From Aplectana chamaeleonis (taxonomy: Eukaryota; Nematoda; Chromadorea; Rhabditida; Cosmocercidae): 64,000 bases of DNA. The notes below the pieces were generated by a model, which was not told the origin of the DNA, did not search any database, and worked only from the letters and a program-made list of their open reading frames with translations. The translations under genes and the position numbers were made by a program. Below are positions 6,181 through 62,977 of the stretch, in pieces. The DNA lies in the NCBI GenBank assembly GCA_029168955.1, contig JAPDOI010000106.1, forward strand, positions 953,001 to 1,017,000, written 5' to 3'. Position 1 is the stretch's first letter. The number at the start of each line of letters is the position of its first letter.

Positions 6181-7178
6181 TTGCTCGAAAACCGTAACTA
6201 GAAACTCTCACGAATAACCTTTCCAAGCTGTTGCGATGCTCTTCTGTCGTTCGACCGGTTACGATGACATCATCAAGTTAGGCGGCGACACCTGGGAGTT
6301 CGGCAATCAAAGAATCGAACAACTGTTGCAATATAACTAACGCAGATTTCACACAAAATGGGAGACGATTGTATTGAAATTTTCCGCGATGGGTATTGAT
6401 CGTGAGAAGTTCTTTCAATTCAGCATCTATTCCCACTTGTAGGTAAGCGTCTGCCAAATCGATTTGAGAGAAGAATTGACCATCGTTCAGCTTCGTGAAG
6501 GTTTCTTCTATTGTCGGCAGCGGATGCTGATGAAGCATCAAAGCATCATTCAATCCAGTATATAAATTGGCGTAGTCTAGTGATCCCATTGCTCTTCTTA
6601 ACAACAACAATGGGCGCGGCCCATTTTGAGTGCTCAACTGCTAGGATGACATTTTCTAGTAAAAGACGATCGAGTTCAGCGTTTACAGCTGATTGAGAGG
6701 CGAACGGGACCGGCCTCTTTTGACGATTTACCGGCCTAGCATGAGGCTTCAGGTAGAGCTTTGCCTTCATTTCTGTGCAGTGGCCCAATCCTGTTTGGAA
6801 TACTCCCGCAAATTTCGTTTTCAGACTCGTGACTGTGTCGCTGCGAACGCTCTCCAATGCGTTTGTTGCGATTCTGCAGTGATACTGTTCTTTGAGCTGT
6901 CTGTAGTTGGACATCTGGATGCACCATTCCAGTCCAAGGGCGTTGGTTGATTCCGTTACGTAGCAGCTTCCGTGTCCAGAAGTTTGTCGGCGATGTCGAT
7001 CGAATGTGGTGAAATCGGCGTTGAATATTGCAATTGCTGAACCATCAGCAGTCTTCACTAGAATCGTAGTTCGGTCAAGGTCTGGTGATCCCATTGTGTG
7101 CCATGTACGACGTAAAACCATCGTGATGTCGGCACCAGTGTCGAGCTGGAGACGAGTGGGATGACCATTGATGTGCAC
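6181..7178 (-). pseudogene. gypsy protease and reverse transcriptase (broken)
   Basis: Minus-strand pol. The aspartic protease motif LQLDTGADITMV is at residues 11-22 of the 7178-6546 frame, at about 7113-7148. The reverse transcriptase follows with the N-terminal motif WAAPIVVVKKSNG, then, after a frameshift near 6560, FSQIDLADAYLQV with the first catalytic Asp. The catalytic box reads stop-LDD at about 6273-6284, so the usual first residue is a stop codon. The thumb ends at YGFRA near 6185, where a deletion removed RNase H. The product would be inactive. Confidence 0.85.
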
Positions 7179-7199
7179 GCTCAGGTAGGTGCGTGTATC

Positions 7200-8202
7200 T
7201 TGGGTTGCCGTTGCAATCTTCTTACAGCGATTGTTTCGTCCATTATGTCTGCCTTTCTGTTTGTGACGTCTGGGTTGCGTCTTGTTGCAGTTGGGTTGGA
7301 ATAGAACCGTTCATTATCAGAGCGCCTACGGTTTGATGGGGTATGATGGTGTCAATCAGGGAAGGTACGGCGATTCCGGTTGCTTTGGTGACGAGTAGGA
7401 TAACTGGTTATCAGCGGTGCTTTGTGTTGATGAGCAGCACTCACATTTTTGTTTTCCATGTTTCGATTGTCGGTTCTCGGAGTTACGAACGTTTCGTTCT
7501 CGTTGATGAAATCGTCCAAAACTGGAATTGGCTCACCATCCTTCAATCGATTGATGTGGTTCAGCAGTCGTAGACGAATCTCGGAATGTGATGAATCAGC
7601 CAGACCAGTTACGAATACCAGATATTTCAGCGAGTCGCTATCAACATTCTTCATAGCAGCATCCTCGAACGTCTTCTTGATTGTGTTGCCGAAATGGCGG
7701 TAGAGCACGTGGGAATTGGACAAGGGAGGGCACCTGGATTGCTGGAACTCGAAACGACTGCGAATGAGTCTTCTTGGGACCAAACAATTTCTTAAGGTTC
7801 TGCACCGTCGTGTTGAGATCGATATCCTTAGGCTTCAGCGGTAGCACGTGGTCAGCATACGTCTTGAATGTGGCCGAGTCCAAGTGGTCCACGACCAGAT
7901 TCCTTTTCCGGTCTTCGTACAGTGCTGCTCCGCGGTCATCGATAACTGGACCATACCGCCTGTGCCATGCATCGGAGGTTATCTCTTCGTCCTTGCAGGT
8001 CGCGTACGAGATCTCCATACGGGTCAACTGCAGCAGTGGGCGGACAAGGGGCATGCGATGAGGGGGATCTGTCGCCATCGAAGACGCGAGTGACCAGCTG
8101 TTGAAGTAGCTGGAGCTGCTGTGCCTGGGCAGTCAGAATGTCGCCCAGCCAAGTCGGAGCATCAGTGCTCACAGTCGAAGGAGGGGCAGGGGAATCGGGC
8201 AT
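7200..8202 (-). pseudogene. gypsy gag (broken)
   Basis: Three overlapping minus-strand frames (8202-7936, 8078-7641, 7783-7352) form one frameshifted gag. It starts MPDSPAPPSTVSTDAP and has a glutamine-rich helix (QAQQLQLLQQLV), then TYADHVLPLKP and LKKLFGPKKT, then RLLNHINRL. This gag type goes with nematode gypsy elements (DUF7083-like; my recollection of the family, not searched). A zinc-knuckle-like remnant (C..K/H/C residues) lies at about 7205-7290, just before protease. Confidence 0.75.
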
Positions 8203-13526: not shown

Positions 13527-13978
13527 AGTTGGACGCCGCCACTCTACAAAAAGTGAACAATAGTTTCTGAGACTGATTTTCCTGGCCGATGCTTCTTAAT
13601 AGCAAAAACAAACCGTTGCGGTGTTTTACACGGAAGCACTCTGTGGTTCCAAAACTCGTCTTGACTACACGGAAACCGTTAAAAAGTATGTGCATGTAAC
13701 CCTAATACTTACCACCAGAATAGAAGATGATGCCAAAAACACAGACGGACGGTTAGCTCCAGCTGCTACGAGAAGCGAAACCAAAGTGCAACATCTAATG
13801 AGAATATTTTTTTAAAATAATCTCGTCAACGAATAGAAGTCCATTCTGGAAACCATTGAACTCTTCCTTGTGAAGTACCACAACGGTTTGTTTCTGCTGT
13901 TAAGAAGTATCGGGCAGGAAAATCAGTCTCAGAAACTATTGTTCACTTTTTTGTAGACTCTCCTCATTCAACTTACCT
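13527..13978. repeat. Inverted repeat of about 110-150-bp arms
   Basis: 13536-13640 is the reverse complement of about 13872-13972 (shared CAGTCTCAGAAACTATTGTT and AACAAACCGTTG). The similarity continues loosely inward. The arm reads as part of an open frame on both strands (GLFLLLRSIGQENQSQK), so it may be a duplicated fragment of a gene or transposase. Not identified. Confidence 0.6.
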
Positions 13979-14164
13979 ATTGTTCCTTTGTTGGAACGTT
14001 TCTGACGCCAACCAAACCTCTTTGCTTGGAAGACCCTTTTTGATAGAATTGTTCACTTTTTATTGATATTACGAAGTAATATCCCTGAAAAAATCTTCAC
14101 ACTTTCGAATAGCATGGATTGCTATAATAATCAGTAAGCAACAAACTTGTTGCGCACGCTAAAA

Positions 14165-17100
14165 ATGCCGCTACTTCACTTTCCACGACGTCCTGATGAT
14201 GTCAGAAAATGCCCTATGCACTCGGCACCACCTTGGCACGACGTCCTGATGACGTCACCAGATGCTTTATGCACTTGGTACGACGTTCTGATGACGTCAT
14301 CAGATGCCCTGTGTACTTTACGTGAAATTCTGATGACGTCATCAGATGCCCTTATGTACTTTACATGACACCCTGATGACGTCATCAGATGCCCTATGTA
14401 CTTTGGTATGACACCCCGATGACGTCATCAGATGTCCTATGTACTTTACATGACACCCTGGATGACGTCATTAGATGCCCTATGTACTTTACATGACACC
14501 CTGATGACGTCATCTGATGCCCTATGTACTTTACATGACACCCTGATGACGTCATCAGATGCCCTATGTACTTTACAGGACACCCTGATGACGCCAACAG
14601 ATGTCTTATGTACTTTACATGACATCCTGATGACGTCATCAGATGCCCTATGTACTTTACATGACACCCTGATGACGCCAACAGATGCCCTATGTACTTT
14701 GATGACACCCTGATGACGTCATCAGATGCCCTATGTACTTTACATGACACCCTGATGACGTCATCAGACGCCCTATGTACTTTACATGACACCCTGATGA
14801 CGCGTCATCAGATGCCCTATGTACTTAAGATGACACTTCGATGACGTCATCAGATGCCTTATGTACTTTACATGACACCCTGATGACGTCATCAGATGCC
14901 CTATGTACTTTACATGACACCCTGATGACGTCATCAGATGCCCTATGTACTTTTACATGACACCCTGATGACGTCAATCAGATGCCCTATGTACTTTACA
15001 TGACATCTGATGACGTCAATCAGATGCCCTATAAATTTTACATGACACCCTGATGACGTCATCAGATGCCCTATAAATTTTATACGACATCCTGATGACG
15101 TTTCACCAGATGCCCTATGTACTTTACATGACACCCTGATGACGTCATCAGATGCCCTATGTACTTTTACATGATTGTTCCCGATGATGACGTCATCAGA
15201 TGCCCTATGTACTTTACATGACACCCTTGATGACGTCATCAGATGCCCTATGTACTTTACATGACACCTCTGATGACGTCATCAGATGCCCTATGTACTT
15301 TACATGACACCCTTGATGACGTCATCAGATGCCCTATGTACTTTGGCATGACACCCTGATGACGTAATCAGATGCCCTATGTACTTTAGCATGACACCCT
15401 GATGACGTCATCAGATGCCCTTATGTTTTTTACATGACACCCTGATGACGTCATCAGATGCCCTATGTACTTTACATGACATTTGATGACGTCATCAGAT
15501 TTATGTACTTTACAGCATGACACCCTGATGACGTCATCAGATGCTCCTATGTACTTTACATGACACCCTGATGATGTCATCAGATGCTCCATGTACTTTG
15601 CTATGACACCCTCATGACGTCATCAGATGCCCTATGTACTTTACATGACACCCTGATGACGTCATCAGACGCCCTATGTACTTTACATGACACCCTGATG
15701 ACGTCATCAGATGCCCTATGTACTTTACATGACATCCTGATGACGTCATCAGATGCTCCTATGTACTTTACATGACACCCTGATGACGTCATCAGATGCC
15801 CTATGTACTTTACATGACACCCTGATGACGCTTCATCAGATGCCTTATGTACTTTACATGACACCCTACGTGACGTCATCAGATGCCCTATGTACTTAGC
15901 ATGACACCCTGATGACGTCATCAGATGCCCTATGTACTTTACATGACACCCTGATGACGTCATCAGATGCCCTATGTACTTTACATGACACCCTGATGAC
16001 GTCATCAGATGCCTTATGTACTTTACATGACACCCCCGATGACGTCATCAGATGCCCTATGTAATTTTACATGACACCTTGATGACGTCATCAGATGCCT
16101 TATGTACTTTATACGACACCCCTGATGACGTCATCAGATGCCCTATGTACTTTACATGACACCCTTCTGATGACGTCATCAGATGCCCTATGTACTTTAT
16201 ATGACACCCTGATGACGTCAATAGATGCCCTATGTACTTTACATGACACCCTGATGACGTCATCAGATGCCCTATGTACTTTACATGACACCCCGATGAC
16301 AATCAGATGCCCTATGTATTTTAAGATGACATCCTGATGACGTCATCAGATGCCCTATACTTCTTTACATGACACCCTGATGACGTCATCAGATGCCCTA
16401 TGTACTTTACATGACACCCTGATGACGTCATCAGATGCCCTATGTACTTTTAAGGACACCCTGATGACGTCATCAGATGCCCTATGTACTTTACATGACA
16501 CCCCGATGACGTCATCAGATGCTCCTATGCACTTTACATGACACCCTGATGACGTCATCAGATGCCCTATGTACTTTTTACATGACACCCTGATGACGTC
16601 ATCAGATGCCCTATGTACTTTACATGACACCCTGATGACGTCATCAGATGCCCTATGTACTTTACATGACACCCCTGATGACGTCATCAGATGCCCTATG
16701 TACTTTACATGACACCCTGATGACGCTATCAGATGCCCTATGTACTTTACATGACAGCCTGATGACGTCATCAGATGCCTTATGTACTTTACATGACACC
16801 CTGATGACGTCATCAGATGCCTTATGTACTTTACATGACATCCTGACACGCCATCAGATGCCCTATGTACTTTACATGAGCCACCCTGATGACGTCATCA
16901 GATGCCCTATGAGAATTTACATGACACCCTGATGACGTCATCAGATGCCCTATGTACTTTACATGACACCCTGATGATGTCATCAGATGCCCTATGTACT
17001 TTTACATGACACCCTGATGACGTCATCAGATGCCCTATGTACTTTATATGACATCCTGATGACGTCATCAGATGCCCTATGTGGCCTTTACATGACACCC

Positions 17101-17440
17101 TGATGACGTCATCAGATGCCTTATGTACTTTACATGACACCCTGATGACGTCAACAGATGCCCTATGTACTTTACATGATTATTTCCTGATGACGTCATC
17201 AGATGCCCTATGTACTTTACATGACACCCCGATGACGTCATCAGATGCTCCTATGTACTTTACATGACACCCTGATGACGTCATCAGATGCCCTATGTAC
17301 TTTTTTTTTTTTTGCATGACACCCTGATGACGTCATCAGATGCCCTATGTACTTTATATGACACCCTGACAGACGTCATCAGATGCCCTATGTACTTTAC
17401 ATGACATCCTGATGACGTCATCAGATGTCTTATGTACTGA
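14165..17440. repeat. 42-bp CRE-palindrome satellite, about 77 units
   Basis: The tandem array has a 42-bp period. Each unit contains the perfect 16-bp palindrome CTGATGACGTCATCAG, followed by GCCCTATG and a second small dyad, TGTACTTTACA. TGACGTCA in the palindrome is the consensus cAMP-response element bound by CREB/ATF-type bZIP factors. Units are very uniform in the middle, with scattered indels and variants such as GCCAACAG, while the first three or four units on the left are diverged. One unit carries an insertion of about 12 T (about 17302-17313). Because 42 is 14 codons, open frames of 60-164 codons run through it on both strands. They are by-products. Confidence 0.97.
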
Positions 17441-17471
17441 TAGCCTGCGACCACTGGCAGTGGCTAGCGGT

Positions 17472-17556
17472 GAACGAGGAACGAGGGACGAGGAACGAGG
17501 GACGAGGAACGAGGGACGAGGAACAGAGGGACGAGGAACAGGACACGAGGGACGCG
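17472..17556. repeat. 14-bp tandem repeat at the satellite edge
   Basis: Repeats of GAACGAGGGACGAG, about six units, decaying on the right. It directly follows the satellite and a short unique piece with CCACTGGCAGTGG. Confidence 0.85.
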
Positions 17557-17757
17557 TTACAAGAAAACGCGAATTTTAGCTAAGCTTCCGCCGATCTAAC
17601 TTTGTTAATTTTCAATCGATTTGGCCCAAATTTTGTCAGCGGGTGTCTTCTATACTCTCTCACCTATATCCAGAAGGAAATCTCTAGAAAATTTGTTTTA
17701 CAGGTTTTATTAACTACTTTACCAAAATCTAAGCGATCACAAGTCTGTGCTGTTATG

Positions 17758-20700
17758 AAACATGCAGTACCGCGTACTAAAACATCTTGTCAGAGGAAGT
17801 AACCGCGAGCTCGGAAATACCTGATGAAAATTAGTATCAAGCAGGCCGGGCAGTATCGACTGAAATCACCTCGACTCAGACAGTCTATTGATACTGAAAT
17901 GTTTATAATGATGATTCAAATGACGATGCACAACCAATACGGTCACCCTGGCAAACGGCATTTCTTGAAAAACTGAAAATAGCGCCTTAGAAACTGTACC
18001 ATCCCCAACAAATCCGCTAAGCCTGCTCTTTGTCTTGATTTGGCGATTTCTCTAGAATCCAGAGCATGCATCACCACACAGCGAGTTATCCGCCATTTTC
18101 GATAGCTTCAGTGACCACATTCTTCCAAGTTGCCATCATTCACTTAACATTGTATCCGCTCATGATGAAAAACGACTATAGTTGCAATGTTATAGAAAGT
18201 AAACCCTGAGTGTACCTGCGTCCTGCTTACGTGCAAAGAGATTCTGCGTCTCGAGTTAGCTACGCATATTATTATTAGCTCCATTTCTGAGCACCAGCGC
18301 AGAGTTCGTGCTGATCTACGCAAGCATCAGCGTACAGCAGAATAGCAAATGTTTGAATTAAACACGAAATATCAAGAAAACCTGGCGTAACCTTAGGTCT
18401 CGAATTTTCCCATTTTCGTTGTCTTCTGTTGTGTTTCAGCACCTTATTAAAAAGCTTTACTGTGCAATGCAGCGACGATAACTCCCGTGCTTAATCCGAT
18501 GAGGACACCCATTTCTACATTATAAATCAGTTTGAGGCCAAAGATAGAGAAAAATGGGTGAGAAATCTGTTTTCAAAACCGACTGCTTCGCGCTCACTTT
18601 AGTGGCATTTCTTTCATATCCAGATTTATCTGGATTTATGAGAAAAATGAGTTATGATACTCCAGCAAAAGTTTATTCGCGTTTCAGTGAACATTTCTGA
18701 AACCCATGTAGAAGTTTTCATAGAAAACGATTCAACTTCGGTTTTGCAAAAGATAATGATATCAAAAGTTCAATATTTGCACCGATGTCAAACAATTTGC
18801 GTTTAAGCTTTGCAAACGCGCTTGTCACATATAAAGAAAAAGATTGCGATTGAACCTCCTGTGGACGCGACAGGTAACCCTAAGTGGTCATGAAAAAAAA
18901 AACAGGAACCAAACACAGCTGGTCATGCTCAAAACTATTTTCTTCAGAGTATATTGATCCCAAATCAGTCTATATCGTGATAATGAAGCGAAACGCTCAC
19001 ACACAGAATAGTAATGAGCCGAGTCTCTAAATAGGCAACAAAGAAAATCTCAAAAGTGGATGTGAAAATTTTAGATTTTTTCGTTGATGGAATTATGAGC
19101 CCAGGGTCCGATCTGGGCTCACTATTGACAGATGGCTGTCATTAAAATGAAATCGGCAGAATCTGTGCTCGCTCACAAAAACACCCAAGCAACATTCATA
19201 TACATAGAAAAAGCTCATACGCCAAATTTTTTTTTGAAAAGTGATTCGGAGAGGTAAGTTGTGCGTAGCTTTTTCACAGAAAGCAAAATTTGGAAAAATA
19301 TGAATCCGCCGATCCAGCAACGATTCTTTCACGCTAGTGTACAGATGCGAAGAAGTAGATTGGCGAATATCATAGCCTTTGAATGCCCTAGATTCACTCC
19401 TGGCATCGGGTTGTAGTGCCCTGACACGTCCAAACTGGAGATGCAGAAGTTCATGTAATTACCCGGACGAGGGGCATATCGATGCCAGCAGGAATCTAGG
19501 GCACATTCAGAGGAGTTTATGATATTTGGCCACAACCTATATTCGCATCTGTACGCTAGCGTGAAAGAATCGTTGCTGGATAGGCGGATTCATACTTTTT
19601 CAAATTTAGTTTTCTGTAAAAACGTTGGTCGTTTTCTGTGCAAATCTTCCCTCTCCGAAGCACTTTTCTAACAAAATTTGGCGTGTGAGTTGTTTCTATG
19701 GATATGAATGTTATTCGGGTGGTTCTGTGAGAGAGCTCGAATTTCGTCGATTTCACTCTAATGACAGTCATTTGTCAATAGTGAGCCCAGATAGGACCCT
19801 GAGCTCAGAACTCCATCAACGAAAAAATCAAATATTTTCGCATCCACTCTTGAGATTTTCTTTGTTGCCCATTTAGAGGCTTGGCTCATTACTATTCTGT
19901 GTGTGAGCAATTCCTTCATTATCACGATATAGACTGATTTGGGATCAATATACTGAAGAAAATAGGGTTTTCAGCATGACCAGCTGTGTTTGGTTCCTGT
20001 TTTTCATTTACCGCCAGGTAAACTCGTCCACACTGTGAGGTTCAATCAGTAATCCTTTTTCTCTTTTACATGTGACAAAGCGCGTTTGTAAAGCTTGGAC
20101 AAAGTCGTTTGACATCATAATATTGAACTTTTGATATCATTATTTTTGCAAAACCGAAAGTTGAATCGTTTTCTCTATGAAAACTTCTACATGGGTTTCA
20201 GGAATGTTCACTGAAACGCGAGTAAACTTTTTGCTGAGTATCATAACCCATTTCTTCTCATAAATCCAGATAAATCTGGATATGAAAGAAATGCTACCAA
20301 GTGAGAGCGAAGCAGTTTTGAAACAGATTTCACCCATTTTTCTATCTTTTGGCCTCAAACTGATTTATAATGTAGAAATGGGTGCCATCCAGAAAGCGAA
20401 GTTATCGTCGCTGCATTGCACAGTGAAGCTTTTTAATAAGTAGCTGAAACACAACAGAAAACAACGAAAATGGGGAAAGGAATCTCAAGAAAAATAAATT
20501 TTTTCGTTTTCGTGTTTCTTATATTCTGCTATTTTTTACTGATGCTTATGGACTTTTTCATAGCTAACTTCTTCGAAAAATCTTTTTTACAGGAGCTATA
20601 CACCTCGAGGACCTCCATAAAAACTGGTCACGTCTCGCGGAAATAAATGTTGAGTGAATGATAATTTGGGAAATCAGCTATCGAAAATGGCCAGATAACT

Positions 20701-23308: not shown

Positions 23309-26300
23309 TACAGTGCGGTCGGCTGCCAAGGGTAAAAAGGCGGTGGTGGGCGGCGGCCGCCGCCGTTTTTGTGCGGCGTCCAATTCAGGAACGGTTTACC
23401 GTGTTTAACGACTTCCCCGGTTGATTCTGTTTCTGTGACACTTTCGAGGCAGCCGTGCGATTCTGCCAGAGAAGTTTGAAGAAATTTCGAAAAGTTTGAA
23501 ATTTTTTCGAGAAATTGAACTGAATGGATGACGAGTCTTTAGAAGCTTATAAACATTTTCAAAACGACGGCTTATGATCAAAGAAATTTGTAAGTGATAC
23601 AAAACATGCAGTATACCGTGCATAAAACATTCTGTCAGAAAACTGCGAGCTGGAAATAAAAATACTCTGGATGAAAATTACAATACAGCATTGCAGAGCC
23701 CGATTAAAATCAATTTTCGGCTCAGACAGGCCTATGCTGATTGAATTGTTATAATGATGATTCAAATGATTTATATGCACAACCACGAATACACCGGAAA
23801 ATTTTCTGGTTGAACGGGCATTTTTGAAAAAAAAATTCAAAAACTAGTGTTTTTTTTCCGGAAATTCAATGTCTATTTAAAGACCCTAACAAATCTGCTG
23901 CTTTGTTTTGATTTATGATTCTTTAGAGCTAGGTATGTGACACCACCAGTTAGTTATCTGGTCATTTTTGATAACTGATTTCCAAATTATCATTTACTCA
24001 ACATTGTTCCGCGAGACGTGACCAGTTTTTATGAGGTCCTCGAGTGTATAGCTCCTGCAAAAAAGATTTTACGAAGAAGTTAGCTATGAAAAAGTCCATG
24101 TGGGCATCAGTAAAAATAGCAGAATATAAGAAACACGAAAACGAGAAAAATTGTTTTTTTTTTTCGAAATTTCCCATTTTTTGTTGTTTTTCTGTTGTGT
24201 TTCAGCACTTATTAAAAAGCTTCACTGTGCAATGCAGCGACGATAACTCTGTTTTCTGATGAGGGCACCCATTTCTACATTATAAATCAGTTTGAGGCCA
24301 AAAGATAGAGAAATGGGTGAGAAATTTGTTTTCAAAAACTGCTTCGCGCTCACTTTAGTGGCATTTCTTTCATATCCAGGTTTATCTGGATATATGAGAA
24401 GAAATGGGTTATGATACTGCAGCAAAAGTTTACTCGCGTTTCAGTGAACATTTCTGAAACCCATGTAGAAGTTTTCATAGAAAACGATTAAACTTCGGTT
24501 TTGCAAAAACTAATGATAACAAAAGTTCAATATTTGCACCGACGTCAAACAATTTGTATTCAAACTTTAACAACGCGCTTGTCAAATATGAAAGAGAAAA
24601 AGGATGGCGATTAAACCTCACAGTGTGGACGAGTTTATCTAAGTGGTTATGAAAAAAAAACAGGAACCAAACACAGTTGGTCATGCTCAAAACTATTTTC
24701 CTCAGAGTAAATTGATCCCAAATCAGTCTATATCGTGATAATGAAGCGAATTGCTCACACACAGAATAGTAATGAGCCAAGCCTCTAAATAGGCAAGAAG
24801 GAAAATGTCAAGAGTGGATGCGAAAATATTTGATTTTTTCATGATGGAATTCTGAGCTCAGGGTCTGATCTGGGCTCACTATTGACAAATGACTGTCATT
24901 AGAGTGAAATCGACTAAATTCGTGCTCGCTAACAAAAACACCCGAATAACATTCATATCCATAGAAAAAACTCATACGCCAAATTTTGTTCGAAATGTAA
25001 TTCGGAGAGGGAAGATTTGCACAGAAAACGACCAACGTTTTTACAGAAAAGTAAATTTGAAAAAGTATGAATCCGCCTATCCAGCAACGATTCTTTGACG
25101 CTAGTGTACAGATGCGAATATGTAGGTTGTGGCAAATATCATTTGCTCAACTTGAATAATGCCCTAGATTCCTCCTGGCATTGGGTTGTAGTGCCCTGAC
25201 ACGTCCAACTGGAGGTGCGAGTCCGTAATTACCCGGACGAGGGCATATCGATGCCAGCAGGAATCTAGGGACATTTGAAAGAGCTATGATATTTGCCACA
25301 GCTCTGTAGATATTCGCAACTGTACACTAGCGTGAAAGAATCGTTGCTGGATTAGCGGATTCATATTTTTAAAATTTTGTTTTCTATGAAAACGCTGGTC
25401 GTTTATGCGCATATCTTGCCTCTCCGAATTACATTTCGAAAAAATTGGCGTATGAAGCTTTTTCTATGTATATGAATGTTGCTTGGGTGTTTTTGTGAGC
25501 GAGCACACAGAGTTTCGTCTTTCATTCTAATGACAGCCATCTGTCAATAGTGAGCCCAGATCGAATTCCCTGGAAGCTCAGAATTCCATCAACGAAAAAA
25601 TCTATTTCACATCCACTTTTGAGATTTTCTTTGTTGCCTATTTAGAAGACTCGGCTCATTACTGTTCTGTGTGTGAGCGTTTCGCTTCATTATGCGATAT
25701 AGACTGATTTGGGATCAATATACTCTGAAGAAAATAGTTTTGAGCATGACCAGCTGTGTTTGGTTCCTGTTTTTTTTTCATGACCACTTAGGTTTACTCG
25801 TCCACAGTGTGAGGTTTAATCGCCATCCTTTTTCCCTTTCATATTTGACAAGCGCGTTGGTAAAATTTGAATACAAATTGTTTGACGTCGGTGCAAATAT
25901 TGAACTTTTGTTATCATTAGTTTTTGCAAAACCGAAGTTGAATCGTTTTTTATGAAAACTTCTACATGGGTTTCAGAAATGTTCACTAAAACGCGAATAA
26001 ACTTTTGCTGCAGTATCATAACCCATTTCTTCTCATAAATCCAGATAAACCTGGATATGAAAGAAATGCCACTAAAGTGAGCGCGAAGCAGTTTTTGAAA
26101 ACATATTCTCACCCATTTTTCTATCTTTTGGCCTCAAACTGATTTATAATGTAGAGTGCCCTCATCAGAAAACAGAGTTATCGTCGCTGCATTGCACAGT
26201 GAAGCTTTTTAATAAGTGCTGAAACACAACAGAAAAACAACAAAAAATGGGAAATTTCGAAAAAAAAACAAATTTTCTCGTTTTCGTGTTTCTTATATTC

Positions 26301-30938: not shown

Positions 30939-33900
30939 ATGGAGTCGAGCAATGCCCCGCTTTTCATTCTTTTCAACGGACGGCCGCTCAAGAAGTCAAA
31001 CTTGCGGCGCATCCTGGAAAACTCCTACTCAAAGGGTGCCGGCCGCAATCTGCACTCTGGCTGCAATATTGTGAGTAAACCTTTTTCCTCATAGCGAGGC
31101 AAAAGTAAGGAGAGTAGATAGCAAAGAAAGGTTTGTCTTCTAGATCGGGAGAGCACTAGCGCAATCGATGCACCGAGAGAGCATGCGTTTGATATCAGAA
31201 CGCCTTGACGAGGATGCTACTAATGTGGCAGCGTTGCAAGGTATTAGCTAGCGACATAAATTAGAAATCGCTGCGTCCAAAGTATCATGGCTGTTTTTAG
31301 AACACTCGGTACGAACGCAACAGCGTCTGCATCAAATTCGCTATCTCGACAGCACTGTCTTCGCATACAAGTCTATTGAAGGGCTGTATCGCGACGTATG
31401 TGAGGAGTTTCCGGATATATTTGCTATCATAAATGAGAACGTGAACGTTAATGAGTGAGTTGAGACATTTTGCGTAGGTAGAACACATCTTGCCCAATAA
31501 TCACTTATTATTCGAATTCTTCTTCAGTCTGACAGCAGAGACTCAGCAGTATGACGCCGAGGGCGACGACGGCATTGAAGGTAATGATAAAAATTTCTTG
31601 TATCCAGCGACCGCGACAAGTGCTGCAGAGTGTTTACATAGCAGCAAATTTATATTGTGCTGACGTGACACACGCGGCTGGCAACAGTTGAACGAACCTG
31701 TCACAATCGCAAATTTTTAGTGTAATAGTGGCTTTAGGCAAGAAGCGACGATAGCAGTTTAATGATATCTTTCTAATTAACGCACACCCTGGCAGCCAGA
31801 GTGCAAAATGAATTTGTTGACTTCAGAGGACCAATCCTTGCTGAGGAAAACTACAAGGATCTGCTCAGTAATTCGACTGAGAACGATGCCCGAATTGTGA
31901 ATGTCTACGAAGTATTGTGTGAGTTTTCTCTATCTCATGTTACACATGTCAACACTTCATGACTTAGATAATATATTATTTCCAGTTGACTTGCAAGAGT
32001 TCGACAAAAGCCGCCAGCGTTTCGTCATTCTGGCTCATGAGCCCAATTATGAGGGGGCGGTTACGATTGGACGCTTGTTCAATCACAGCCGCCACCCCAA
32101 TATTAAGGTCTTACCTTACTATGAGCAGAAGAAAGGCTGCAAACCGGAGATGTTTGCCTACTTCAAAGCAAGGAGAGATATTGAGGTGATTCTAATGCTT
32201 AATTAAGGCAGCAGACATGCTCAAGAAGGATATCGATTTTATGACATGAACCTGTGGTTTGGAGCTGGTGGTATATGGAAATAACAGAAAACCAACATAT
32301 GCAAAAACTGTATGCAAATAGAGGAATAACGTTTGTTTTTGATACGGGGTGAAAGTGGACGACCTACACTACAGCTTGCCCGCGCAGTTGAAATCGCAAC
32401 TATCACCGTCAGATCGGTTGTGATTGCAGAGGCGGTAGACTCGAGCAACCTCTACTAGAGCATTCATCTTGTTGGAAGCATCAAAAACCGGTCAAAGTGA
32501 ACGTATTCAAAAGACCAATCTAAACGTGCTTGTATCTGGAGACGGAGTTGTCGAAGGTCGTGGGTGGGGTTATCAAAATTTTACGACTTGCGCTGCTCAA
32601 GTTTAGTGGTTTTGACTCGATTTTCACGCTTCCAACGGCGTGAGCGCTCTACCGGGAGTCATACTACCCCGGTAACGTTGTTATCTTATAAACTTTTCGA
32701 GCATGTCTAATGCCTTTAATCACCGAATACTATAATCTATGGATACTACATAAACTGACTCGACGAAAATTTTATTAACGTCTCAACCTTTTTCATTTTG
32801 AATTTAAGGCAGTGGTTGCGATAAAATATGCCTGTTTTCTTTTGCTCTCTATACCCTTTTCTGCGTTTAGAGTAGTAGGACCACCGAGAAAAAGTCGCGA
32901 TTAACCCGCTGTTTCGGGCCAAATTTGAAGCCTGAACTTTCTTGTCTTTGATGGTGGACGAACCCACTCAACATCATCGGCAGCGATGATCTCTGATATC
33001 AAGAACATCAGCTGGCTTGAAATTAAAGTTCAATAAATGAACATTATCCTTCGAGCTCATCTAGTCAAAAACATTGACTGAAGCGCTTGCTTTCATTGTT
33101 CAACTCTTTTCATTACGTAAACTTGAATTTATTTCTTTCTCAAAATGTCCGTGATTTTTGACTGCTCGGGATGAGGCTGCGATCTGTTTTTGCGGCGCTG
33201 TGCACGTGTGCGCGAACTAGCACCTTTGGGCCCTAAAAACTCTACTTATAGCCCGTTTTTCACCGCGCTACCTTCATAGTTGTTCAGCTGTTTTCCATCT
33301 AAGCTGATTTTTATAGTTTTTTAGATAACGTTTTAATCGTGACCACTGCCTTTAAGGCCTACTAACAATACGGCAAGTACAAAACTAGGTGACAACAAAA
33401 ATCACGGAAGTTCTTTCTTCAGAACGGGGAACAGCTGCTCTGGGATTACGACGGAGAATATCGTAAAGAAGTGCTCAAGGCGCCCTGCATGTGCTCATCG
33501 TGCCGCAAAAACTTTGGTTAGTTAAATTCTGACTGGTCTTACTAATTTGTGTTTTTATCCGTCCGTGAGCTTTAAGAGTACCGAGTTTTGACAGTAATAG
33601 GTTTTGGACACAGCAATGATATTCCGTTTTCCATATCCCTCAAAAGTATTCCGAAAAAGAAAATACAAACGAAGCCAAAACTCCCCAGCCAACCAGAAGT
33701 ACTCAGACAAACCATCGCGCGGAGCGGGACCGGCTCGTCCTAATTCTGACGTAATCGCCAGGACAGCAGCCGAGGGGTCAACTGCTCAGGCAAACGATCG
33801 CTTCGAGCGGGACCGGCTCCTCCCAATTATGACGTCATCGCCCGGACAGCAGCCGAGGAGCCAACTGGCACCGCGGTCCCTGTCCGGTGCCAGTTCGCCC

Positions 33901-35442: not shown

Positions 35443-35817
35443 GAACCCAGCATAGAATTCCTTGGTAAAGGTTTGGTTCTGCCTAGGCCTTGTGATCACT
35501 TAGAATTTTATAAAATAGTTTATAGAATCTTTGAAACAAAATTTCTGAAGATTTTCTTCTGGGTGCAAGTGAAGGGGTCCAAAAGACACCCGATGACAAA
35601 ATTTTAGCCAAATCGGTTCACAAATAACAAAGTTGTGAGCCCGAAAGCTTAAGAAAATTTCATGGTGTGCGCCGTGGGCCGTGGGCCGTCACGCTTTTCA
35701 GTCCTAACTGTTAACAGCCACTGCCAATGGCCGCAGGCAATCAACTTGACAGATAGGTAAGTTGGTAGGGGGTACTTAGGCTGGTGAGTAATCGATTTCT
35801 AGGTCCGTGGGGATTCA

Positions 35818-36030
35818 GATGGCGTCATAGGTACGTCTTGAAAAGTGCTTCGGGCTTCCGATGGCGTCATCGGGACGTCGTGAAAAGTGCCTCGGACATT
35901 TGTATCTTAAGGTAGCATTTCTGAGCACCAAGGCAAAAGTTCGTGCTAGTGTCCGCAATGCGTAGCAGAATGTTTGACATTAAGAAAAATATCAAGAAAA
36001 CGTAGGTAATTTTAGACCCCGATTTCGCGT
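35818..36030. repeat. Two-unit relic of the 42-bp satellite plus its flank
   Basis: Two tandem units of about 42 bp (GATGGCGTCAT..G.ACGTC.TGAAAAGTGC) start at about 35819 and 35861. They match the diverged left-edge satellite units (14185-14300) in reverse complement. Just downstream, 35912-36000 (CATTTCTGAGCACCA, AGTTCGTGCT, AAATATCAAGAAAAC) matches about 18275-18385 next to the main array. The remaining spacer to 36244 has no recognised gene. Confidence 0.6.
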
Positions 36031-45479: not shown

Positions 45480-46056
45480 AAAACGTAACGTATTGACCGC
45501 GTGATAAAATCGGGCCTTCCGCGTTTGAGTGCGTACTAACCGTAGTCAAAATTACGCACAACATTTGTACCGACCGCGTGGCAATGCGTTCCGACAGCGT
45601 GTCCATGCGTGTCGACAGCGTGACTATGCGTACCGACCCCGTGACAATGCGTATCAACGGCGGGACAAGACGTACTGACCGCGCGGCGATGCGTACTAAC
45701 CGCGTACCATTGCGTATTGACCGCGCGACAGTACGTATCGACCGCGTGGAGGTGCGTACCAATCGCGTGACAGTGCGCACCAACACCGTGGCAATGCGTA
45801 CCGACGGCGTGGCAAGACGTACTGATCGCGTGGCAGTGCGTACCGACCGCGTGACAATTCGTGCCGACCGCATGGCAAGACGTACCGACCGCGCCGCGAT
45901 ACGTACTGACCGCGTGGCATTCAGTACTGACCGCGTGACAGTGCGTATCGACCGCGCAATTTTTCGTGCCGACCGCGTGCAAATTGCGTTCCAAACGTCG
46001 CCCATCCCGCTGTCGGTACGCAACTTCTCCGCCGTCGGTCCACCCCATTGTCTGAG
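45480..46056. repeat. 21-bp minisatellite (locus M2)
   Basis: About 22 units of consensus CGTACCGACCGCGTGGCAAT plus one base, running about 45550-46010. With a 21-bp period the plus strand encodes an apparent heptapeptide repeat (RTDRVAV) over 150 residues and the minus strand another. These are by-products. The right flank (46034-46056) is the exact reverse complement of 41040-41062. Confidence 0.9.
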
Positions 46057-61292: not shown

Positions 61293-61570
61293 GCTACAGG
61301 GATCTACCTCCTCGTTGGTGTACGGTGGAAGCGTCCACAGACCCTGTAGGGTTGCCTGGCAAGCCTTGGTGTGAACGACGAACAGATCCAAACTGTCTCC
61401 CCCCTAGAATGTCAGCGTCAAGCCAGCGCTGAAGCGTTCATGGGGCTCATCCCACGCCCTTGCCCGGCTAAGGATGAGATCTAGGAGACGAATGCCTTTA
61501 CGCAGCGACATCCAATCAGCTGCCCCAGTCCTCCGCACACCGCGCCCAGCCGTCTACGACGTCGGAAGGT

Positions 61571-62977
61571 ATGGCAACCGGTGAGGGGCGATCAAATCTC
61601 GGAGTACGCAGGACGTTTTATGGAAACGGACAAACTGGACCGGACAAACACAGGCATCACGACTGTGTACGATTTTGCTCCTTCAACGCCCGAACTCTTT
61701 CAACTGAAGCGGATCAGGACGTCTTTCTGAGAGCTGCGGATCGAATACTTTACGATGTTATAGCAGTACAGGAGACAAAGACGAACAAAGATTCCGTGCA
61801 GAAATTGAAAGATGGAAGATTGTTGATTCTCGGAAAAAAAGTGGAGGGACGGAATGTTGGCGGTGTTGGCTTCTTACTCAACAGCACCATGGCACATACT
61901 ATGGATTCGCACTTCATCTACTCCCCGCGCCTGGCCGTTTTACGAATCAAGCCCAAAGGACACCCAGCAATCTCTATCATCAACGCATATGCACCAACAT
62001 CAGCTGCTGCGGATGATGAGCTCGATGAGTTCTACGGACAACTCGAGGATGTAGTAGCTAAAGAAAGAGGCTTTTACAAGATTTGTCTGGGCGACTTCAA
62101 TGCTGTCCTCGGAAGAGAAGTAGATGGAGAAGGAAGAATCGGATCGTATAGAGGCAACATCAGAAACGATAACGGTTCTCGCCTGGCAGACTTTTTGTGT
62201 AGCGCACGTATGTTCCACGGTAATTCGTTTTACAAGAAGCCCGAAAGTCGAAGATGGACCTGGAAGTCACCGAACGGAACGACGACCAATGAGATTGATC
62301 ATATTCTCGTTAATCGGCGATGGGCCCTCCTAGACGTCGGCACTGTTCCATCATTCGTGACAGGCTCTGACCACAGAATGCTTCGTGCAAAGCTTCGACT
62401 TCACAACAACTTTACGAGGAAACATCTTAGTCAGAGATTTTGCAGCAAAATCCGAACCGTGGATTCAGAAGTGATGCAGCGCAGTGTAGCCGATACGCAA
62501 TGGAATGTTTTTGATGATCCCACAGACGATTACGAGGACCTGTGTCGCAAGATAAAGGACGCCAAAAAAAATTCATTGGTTGGAGCAGTGGAACCAATTG
62601 ATAGGCTGCGCAAGGAGACTAAACTGTTGCTGGAAAAACGCCGCCTGGTACATCTCGATCCGAACACCAGTTACTTGGAGCGTGTTACGATCAGCAAAGT
62701 TTGCAGAGCTGAGGTATCGAGCGATTTGAAGCAATATCGAGCGCGGAAGTTGTTGGACCCCGTGAACCAGAGGAAAAGCATCAGGTTTTGTCGGAGAGAG
62801 CTGTCAGATCGCAGAGAACAAGTGTCAGCACTTCGGGATTCCTCGGGTTGCATTTGCACGTCCCGCGCTGGTATGGAAAAAATTGTGGTGGATTTCTACA
62901 GCACTCTCTTCAACTCAACACTGTCCGTGCCGCGTAGCCCACTACCTGCAATAGCAGATGACCCGCCCAATCCTTGA
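61571..62977 (+). CDS. LINE endonuclease and linker (N-terminal part of polyprotein)
   Basis: A 468-residue frame. AP-endonuclease motifs in order: FNART (Asn39), VQETK (Glu68), GGVGF (98-101), INAYAPT (137-143), LGDFNAVLG (Asp175, Asn177), EIDHIL (Asp243) and GSDHRML (Asp267, His268). All the catalytic positions I know for this fold are present. The enzyme nicks target DNA to prime reverse transcription. After about residue 280 comes a basic linker. The frame ends at TGA 62975-62977, just where reverse transcriptase starts in another phase, so the stop comes from a frameshift. The start is the first ATG in the frame. Confidence 0.9.
   Translation: MATGEGRSNLGVRRTFYGNGQTGPDKHRHHDCVRFCSFNARTLSTEADQDVFLRAADRILYDVIAVQETKTNKDSVQKLKDGRLLILGKKVEGRNVGGVGFLLNSTMAHTMDSHFIYSPRLAVLRIKPKGHPAISIINAYAPTSAAADDELDEFYGQLEDVVAKERGFYKICLGDFNAVLGREVDGEGRIGSYRGNIRNDNGSRLADFLCSARMFHGNSFYKKPESRRWTWKSPNGTTTNEIDHILVNRRWALLDVGTVPSFVTGSDHRMLRAKLRLHNNFTRKHLSQRFCSKIRTVDSEVMQRSVADTQWNVFDDPTDDYEDLCRKIKDAKKNSLVGAVEPIDRLRKETKLLLEKRRLVHLDPNTSYLERVTISKVCRAEVSSDLKQYRARKLLDPVNQRKSIRFCRRELSDRREQVSALRDSSGCICTSRAGMEKIVVDFYSTLFNSTLSVPRSPLPAIADDPPNP

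Follow-up and report, generated by a model that had tools for sequence, protein, structure and literature searches.

The CRE-bearing 42-bp tandem array of Aplectana chamaeleonis as the expandable centre of a Helitron/HINE-like transposon

Introduction

What is a tandem array in which the CREB/ATF consensus recurs about once in every 42 bp doing in a nematode genome, and is the site kept by a host factor that binds it or merely by the array that copies it? The array in question lies in a stretch of 64,000 nucleotides of Aplectana chamaeleonis (GenBank assembly GCA_029168955.1, contig JAPDOI010000106.1, forward-strand positions 953,001 to 1,017,000), which in its entirety is called the window here. 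The original prediction took the array for a satellite of about 77 tandem units, nearly every one of them with a perfect 16-bp palindrome built around the CREB/ATF site and with a second conserved dyad. Below we describe the array, the element of which it forms a part and the distribution of that element in the genome, and then consider what is conserved in its repeat unit.

The array in the window

The array is real and close to the size first claimed for it: Tandem Repeats Finder reports a period of 42 with 74.7 copies at 14245-17438, and wrap-around alignment resolves 76 units of 42 bp at 14192-17440, the first two degenerate and the last partial. A 20-bp probe, TGATGACGTCATCAGATGCC, with up to three mismatches allowed, has 70 matches in the window on both strands versus 0.00 expected in shuffles. 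The unit does contain the exact CREB/ATF consensus, TGACGTCA (the 8-bp CRE), with 63 occurrences in 14165-17440. The perfect palindrome CTGATGACGTCATCAG in nearly every unit was too strong a claim, the same interval having 44 exact 16-mers among the 76 units (and 46 copies of TGTACTTTACA); the CRE is present in most units, and the perfect 16-mer falls well short of nearly all. The array is flanked by further sequence that recurs elsewhere in the genome, and the parts of the window copy are as follows:

13543..14191, plus strand: left module, truncated at the 5' side, without the outermost ~100 bp and the TCTATCAAAAAGGGG terminus
13548..13951, strand not applicable: long inverted repeat in the left module, arms 13548-13662 and 13837-13951
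14192..17440, plus strand: central array, 76 units of 42 bp, consensus CCTGATGACGTCATCAGATGCCCTATGTACTTTACATGACAC (Tandem Repeats Finder, wrap-around alignment)
17441..17744, plus strand: right module, truncated at the 3' side, without the subterminal repeat and hairpin of other copies
17472..17554, plus strand: 7-bp minisatellite (GAACGAG/GGACGAG) in the right module (Tandem Repeats Finder)

At 0.71 indels per unit, as against 0.01-0.06 in three other arrays, the window array is noisy, suggesting that it has decayed or that the assembly consensus is poor at this place. Because these indels break the 42-bp register, the helical phasing of the CREs is weak in this copy (best mean vector 0.40 at 10.6 bp, with seven periods tried); in the array on contig C1 the CRE spacing is almost always exactly 42. 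At gathering thresholds, Rfam yields no structured-RNA match in the window.

The window holds several other repeats and mobile-element remains. At 33702-33867 lie two copies of an 83-bp unit with CTGACGTAATCG and ATGACGTCATCG (a near-CRE and a CRE), which is otherwise a different repeat; a 21-bp minisatellite of 18.6 copies at 45567-45956 is spanned by three open frames of 218-253 codons; and four similar repeats of about 1 kb occupy 18400-19500, 19480-20478, 24164-25269 and 25249-26260 in both orientations. Retroelement fragments with a DUF7083 domain and a gag-type aspartyl protease (PF23309, PF13975) are found on the minus strand at 6549-8132, and an RTE-type LINE ORF with an endonuclease domain (PF03372) at 61478-62977, with its best hits in strongyles (Necator, Ancylostoma and Haemonchus), the top one aligning over 93% of the query at 47% identity.

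A non-autonomous element with an expandable centre

The array is no free satellite; it forms the expandable centre of a non-autonomous transposon of Helitron/HINE-like type. Three arrays, namely that of the window and two on contig C1 (L001, with a handful of units, and L002+L009, with 175), have a left and a right module in common. The left module, of about 0.8 kb, contains a long inverted repeat (in L001, arms of 209 nt that are 89% complementary), and the right module, of about 0.34 kb, has at its end a 12-bp subterminal inverted repeat, followed by a hairpin. Between the two, the copies that we read have arrays of as few as a handful of units and as many as 175. In L001, a second tandem repeat of about 145 bp (by eye) lies between the 42-bp units and the right module (L001:1532-2410, which also holds an inverted repeat with 59-nt arms), and the element centre can thus hold other satellites.

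Judged by homology, which extends over 13543-17744, the window copy lacks both element ends. Its left module is homologous to L001 621-1332 (with the inverted arm reaching back to 518) and to L009 on the minus strand, and in the alignment diverges from these two upstream of about column 157; the larger part of its right module is 95.3% identical to L001 (235 bp) and 94.5% identical to L002 (256 bp). The private changes in units 2-4 of the window array are nearly those with which the array of a copy on contig C1470 opens, in its units 1-3; this implies that an array moves together with its element and changes its length afterwards.

The ends of the element are sharply defined in other copies. 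Of the young right ends, 20 were fetched, and every one breaks off at a single shared position beyond the hairpin, with GAGCGA(T) as the 3' end, and continues into unrelated sequence; the hairpin, CTCCAGCCGCTTCGCGGCTGGAG, with a 10-bp stem in the predicted fold, is unchanged in 18 of them and altered in L024 and L025, and the same 3' hairpin region recurs in 13 of 14 pieces from a sister subfamily. On the other side, 13 of 20 fetched 5' pieces begin exactly at TCTATCAAAAAGG (TCTATC), after A or AT; among the remainder, two have small end changes (L051, L065), three lie inside the element (L056, L061, L063) and two hold other sequence (L048, L062). An A precedes (T)TCTATC in all 13 exact 5' ends among the 20 pieces fetched, and a T follows GAGCGA in 20 of 20 young right ends, giving an apparent A|T insertion site with a variable boundary T.

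A complete copy, C1470:31159-33799, measures 2,641 bp and contains 34 palindromes. Its 12-bp subterminal inverted repeat is formed by AGAGGTTTGGTT, which begins 30 bp from the 5' end, and AACCAAACCTCT, which begins 37 nt before the 3' end; a search of the outermost 120 bp at each end of this copy found no terminal inverted repeat and the one subterminal pair. Target-site duplications are absent from all four copies with both flanks, one of which (C1431) has ends 4.2 kb apart and was taken as a single copy from its ends alone. These four are flanked by A on the 5' side, with a further T that may be part of the element, and by T on the 3' side. We rejected a cut-and-paste (TIR) transposon or MITE on these two counts, the missing terminal inverted repeat and the missing duplications.

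Distribution in the genome and the share of CREs

When the whole assembly (1,036,593,504 bases in 2,087 contigs) was searched for other arrays, as the original prediction had suggested, thousands of dispersed copies of the element came to light. The exact 16-bp palindrome occurs 125,605 times (its reversed control, 0) and a non-palindromic 16-mer of the unit 109,308 times; the exact 36-bp 3' end occurs 2,294 times (control, 0). A 181-bp right-module probe returned 1,930 candidates, and the 40 that were scored, on 36 contigs, all match at 98-100% (the 39 besides that of the window at 98-99% over 17550-17730). A left-module probe returned 1,677 candidates, with the 40 scored at 93-100%.

This distribution bears on the possibility of an ordinary centromeric or pericentromeric satellite. 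The long, homogeneous 42-bp arrays would be in keeping with one, but they sit inside a dispersed transposon with coinciding ends, and the first 100 listed of the 2,294 exact 3' ends are spread over the whole of contigs C1-C11. We therefore set aside a classical satellite or centromere repeat as scarcely credible.

The CRE, TGACGTCA, itself occurs 349,376 times in the genome versus 20,142 times for its reversed control, ACTGCAGT; the fetched loci L010-L022 (130 kb) contain four, or about 31 per Mb, a small count. Within the arrays the density is one per ~42 bp over 1.4-7 kb. Given the 2,294 exact 3' ends and the excess over the control, most perfect CREs of the genome probably lie in these arrays; by either yardstick the share would exceed 90%, as an estimate and not as a count made copy by copy.

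Conservation within young arrays

If the palindrome were the conserved core of the unit, as was originally proposed, it should stand out when the units are aligned, and it does not. In window units 3-75 its columns are 97.1% intact versus 95.8% for the other columns, and the 16-bp window ranks only seventh among the 42 circular windows. The second dyad fares no better than its surroundings: it is 95.5% intact in these units, below average, and it is absent from the unit of the sister subfamily, in which several dyad columns differ. Maintenance of the palindrome by compensation was likewise rejected, with zero paired changes and 34 one-sided ones among 584 pair cells of window units 3-75.

The same picture emerges from a larger pool of 397 young units, in which those of the window were joined by units from three other arrays and from L001, and by the terminal units next to the right ends that had been fetched (a unit was dropped if its identity to the consensus was below 75%, or below 60% in L001). 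Here the 16-bp palindrome is unremarkable, with 24 of 42 circular shifts having equally few array-level variants; the 8-bp CRE is among the three lowest of the 42 shifts, and when assessed by distinct variant types in young arrays is not significantly depleted (Fisher test, P=0.35). Of the 370 units that make up the four main arrays, 341 have the exact CRE. In the 175-unit array (L002+L009), the same variants recur in repeated blocks. Homogenisation explains much of the uniformity within arrays, and an array by itself gives no sign of special conservation of the palindrome.

These observations furnish the case for the main rival to a bound site, namely that the CRE has no role: a founder unit that by chance contained TGACGTCA was copied by transposition bursts and homogenisation, and the apparent constraint is shared ancestry. 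In keeping with this, the palindrome is not conserved in excess in young arrays, the 175-unit array is built of homogenised blocks, and the non-palindromic 16-mer is almost as common in the genome as the palindrome. We regard such a passenger CRE as possible, if rather doubtful, in light of the sister elements considered next.

The CRE in a sister subfamily

A second, more diverged copy in the window opens a comparison between subfamilies:

35465..35895, minus strand: sister-subfamily relic, with the right module at 35489-35634 and two 42-bp units at 35810-35895

Its right module matches that of the window copy at 79% over 146 bp, the start of the 3' subterminal repeat region lies at 35465-35483, and the two units (42 bp x 2 by Tandem Repeats Finder; pattern match with three mismatches) read TGACGCCA at the CRE. 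A probe from this right module returned 2,186 candidates, a list that may overlap with that of the young probe; the 40 that were scored comprise the relic itself and 39 others at 92-94%. We infer that this subfamily is the older of the two, since its identity is lower.

Of those 39 places, 14 were fetched, and 42-bp arrays are present in all 14 pieces, their unit being CCCGATGACGTCATCAGAAGCCCGAAGCACTTTTCACGACGT or a variant that departs from it in at most three columns; they derive from the best 40 of the 2,186 candidates and are related to one another. The young and sister units differ in nine columns, none of them in TGACGTCA (P=0.12) and one inside the 16-bp palindrome (P=0.06). At the consensus level, across the 14 sister units and the young one, none of the eight CRE columns varies as against 14 of the 34 others (one-sided P=0.026).

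The individual units, 292 from the 14 elements after dropping incomplete ones and those with fewer than 30 of 42 matches, point the same way. Mismatch amounts to 0.027 per column per unit in the CRE versus 0.078 elsewhere, and the CRE has the lowest raw mismatch of all 42 circular 8-column windows; the palindrome arms, at 0.087, are no better retained than the remaining columns, at 0.076. When each distinct variant is counted once per element, the CRE has 31 as against the 51.5 expected from columns with the same bases, i.e., about 40% fewer; random 8-column sets match this count with P=0.005, and the CRE ranks second among the 42 windows. By variants seen in a single unit, it ranks first of 42 (P=0.016). 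In L069, the most degenerate array, 10 of 22 CREs are exact and the difference is weak (1.75 changes in CRE columns versus 2.41 elsewhere). These P values are modest, and several tests were run before they were reached. As for confounding by CpG decay, the observed/expected ratio of 0.97-1.08 indicates no depletion, and such decay is thus unlikely to explain the difference in CRE conservation in either direction.

There is hence moderate evidence, from comparison of the sister arrays, that it is the 8-bp CRE, rather than the palindrome, that they retain, which moderately favours a putative bZIP site. Two parts of the original prediction come out of this comparison divided. The exact factor site as conserved core holds for the 8-bp CRE in the sister elements and fails for the 16-bp palindrome and the second dyad; and preservation by homogenisation alone agrees with the repeated variant blocks of the 175-unit array and is at odds with the CRE having the lowest mismatch in the sister elements. 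For the passenger reading, the exact CRE has indeed been lost from 53 of the 292 sister units, being retained in 239, but the low raw mismatch, the deficit of distinct variants and the lack of CpG depletion all tell against it.

The retention of the CRE without its arms also bears on another alternative, in which the palindrome serves the element and no host bZIP site is involved, either by binding the Rep/helicase or by forming hairpins that drive array expansion during rolling-circle replication. Each 42-bp unit can fold into two small hairpins (z -3.16), and palindromes have been suggested to favour satellite expansion (in the part of PMC4595182 that deals with them). Yet the outer arms are no better retained than other columns, the young units show only one-sided changes at paired positions, and the second dyad is missing from the sister unit; we deem this alternative improbable.

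A proposed mechanism and its alternatives

Taking the above together, we consider it moderately likely that the array belongs, as its central repeat, to a non-autonomous rolling-circle transposon and that TGACGTCA is retained via putative binding of a host bZIP factor, the latter part being the less sure. Briefly, the element would be copied by a Rep/helicase supplied in trans by a partner, and its array would travel with it and then expand or homogenise, growing by unequal exchange or replication slippage. A host CREB/ATF-type bZIP factor might bind TGACGTCA, which would account for its retention. If the Caenorhabditis Helitrons described below are a guide, the CRE may permit expression or opening of the element wherever CREB/ATF is active; binding would aid expression, opening or copying in such places, e.g., the germ line. 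As a by-product, the genome would be flooded with CREs that could respond to the factor or titrate it.

A bolder form of this mechanism is that the transposon has captured the host CREB/ATF pathway: selection for bZIP binding would act on TGACGTCA, the transposon would contain more than 90% of perfect CREs, and thousands of dispersed arrays would serve to read out, rewire or buffer cAMP/CREB (or ATF) signalling. We advance this version tentatively, as a possibility that we hold to be doubtful. The converse, in which the satellite serves the host as a bZIP sponge, enhancer or boundary, overlaps with the transposon mechanism if the CRE is bound. The extreme density speaks for it, with hundreds of thousands of sites at about one per 42 bp over 1.4-7 kb; but the copies are scattered insertions with no locus maintained for host use, and the window copy is truncated at both ends with a noisy array (0.71 indels per unit), which makes a dedicated host function improbable.

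Comparison with known systems

We class the element as Helitron/HINE-like by its ends and structure. Canonical Helitrons have a 5' TC, insert between A and T, and carry a hairpin near a 3' end that reads CTRR. The element has the 5' TC, an apparent insertion between A and T and the hairpin near the 3' end, and differs in its 3' terminus, GAGCGA(T) in place of CTRR.

HINEs, such as DINE-1 and the mite HINEs, are described in excerpts of PMC4067079 as two modules with central satellite-like repeats, subterminal repeats of 11-15 bp and a 3' palindrome. The element resembles these non-autonomous Helentrons in several respects: the 12-bp subterminal inverted repeats fall within the 11-15 bp range; a 3' stem-loop lies downstream of the subterminal repeat in young and sister copies; target-site duplications are absent from four of four copies; and central tandem repeats lie between two modules, one of which contains a short repeat, in a family of high copy number. 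There are also differences. The element inserts at an apparent A|T, whereas HINEs and Helentrons insert into TT; its 5' subterminal repeat lies 30 bp from the end, as against 2-4 nt in the mite HINE (PMC4067079, in part); its short repeat is in the right module, whereas that of the oyster Cg_HINE, a comparable system, is in the left one (PMC7492417, in part); and its left module has an inverted repeat of about 200 bp, which sets it apart from HINEs.

The genome has 42 matches to Helitron_like_N (PF14214), several of them within open frames that exceed 1,000 codons. Around one of these 42 loci, a Helitron ORF at C65, 8 kb were fetched; these pieces, which may not reach that Helitron's own ends, have no ends in common with the element, and the locus was set aside as a candidate for the autonomous partner. 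The Helitron/HINE-like label thus derives from the matching HINE features, and is qualified by the A|T, CTRR and C65 mismatches. Upstream of the PF14214 ORF at C65 lies a 79-bp tandem repeat of 12 copies (L080:1-945, C65:351300-352244), which suggests that other Helitrons of this genome may also carry internal satellites.

Both transposon-borne satellites and transposon-borne factor sites are already known. In the open-licence PMC literature we found no Helitron-like family with CREs in such numbers (which does not establish its absence from print), no instance of the 16-bp palindrome string, no paper that brings Helitrons and CREB together in nematodes and, by title and abstract start among the matches listed, no CRE satellite. 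The one paper there in which TGACGTCA occurs alongside satellites and tandem repeats deals with zebrafish models of muscle disease, and among the best 10 of 771 matches on transposon tandem repeats none contains 'cAMP response element'.

The closest precedent comes from Caenorhabditis, in which Helitrons carry tandem heat-shock elements (HSEs) that are bound by HSF-1, with adjacent genes responding to heat; almost two-thirds of the HSEs of C. elegans lie in Helitrons, and the authors raise, as speculation, an original role of the motif in the transposon itself (all from excerpts of PMC6927752). Named carriers include Helitron1_CE, HelitronY1_CE, HelitronY4_CE and others (PMC6927752; PMC4595182, both in excerpt), and a palindromic Helitron repeat, AGAANNTTCT, is noted in the latter source; in our own reading of its sequence, this repeat appears to resemble a heat-shock element.

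If the CRE is bound, the Aplectana element would be a further nematode rolling-circle transposon that has multiplied one host factor site, after the Caenorhabditis HSEs, and has done so in very large numbers; the adoption of a stress or signalling factor would then look like a recurrent part of how such elements live. It would also offer a natural setting in which individuals may differ, through insertions, in their CREB/ATF targets, and in which titration of the factor by hundreds of thousands of sites would be measurable. Even with a neutral CRE, a transposon can supply most genomic copies of a regulatory motif, and motif-based target prediction would be misled by the copies so supplied.

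The parallel itself may be stated simply. In both cases a nematode rolling-circle transposon has internal repeats with the motif of a host transcription factor, and in both a large share of the genome's copies of that motif is in the transposon, a share that for the CRE is an inferred one. The CRE recurs in tandem and, at 349,376 occurrences genome-wide versus 20,142 for the control, is strongly enriched, as is the motif of HSE-type arrays. In Caenorhabditis the pair is the HSE and HSF-1, for which binding has been shown, whereas here it is the CRE, TGACGTCA, the very numerous copies of which (349,376) are putative binding sites.
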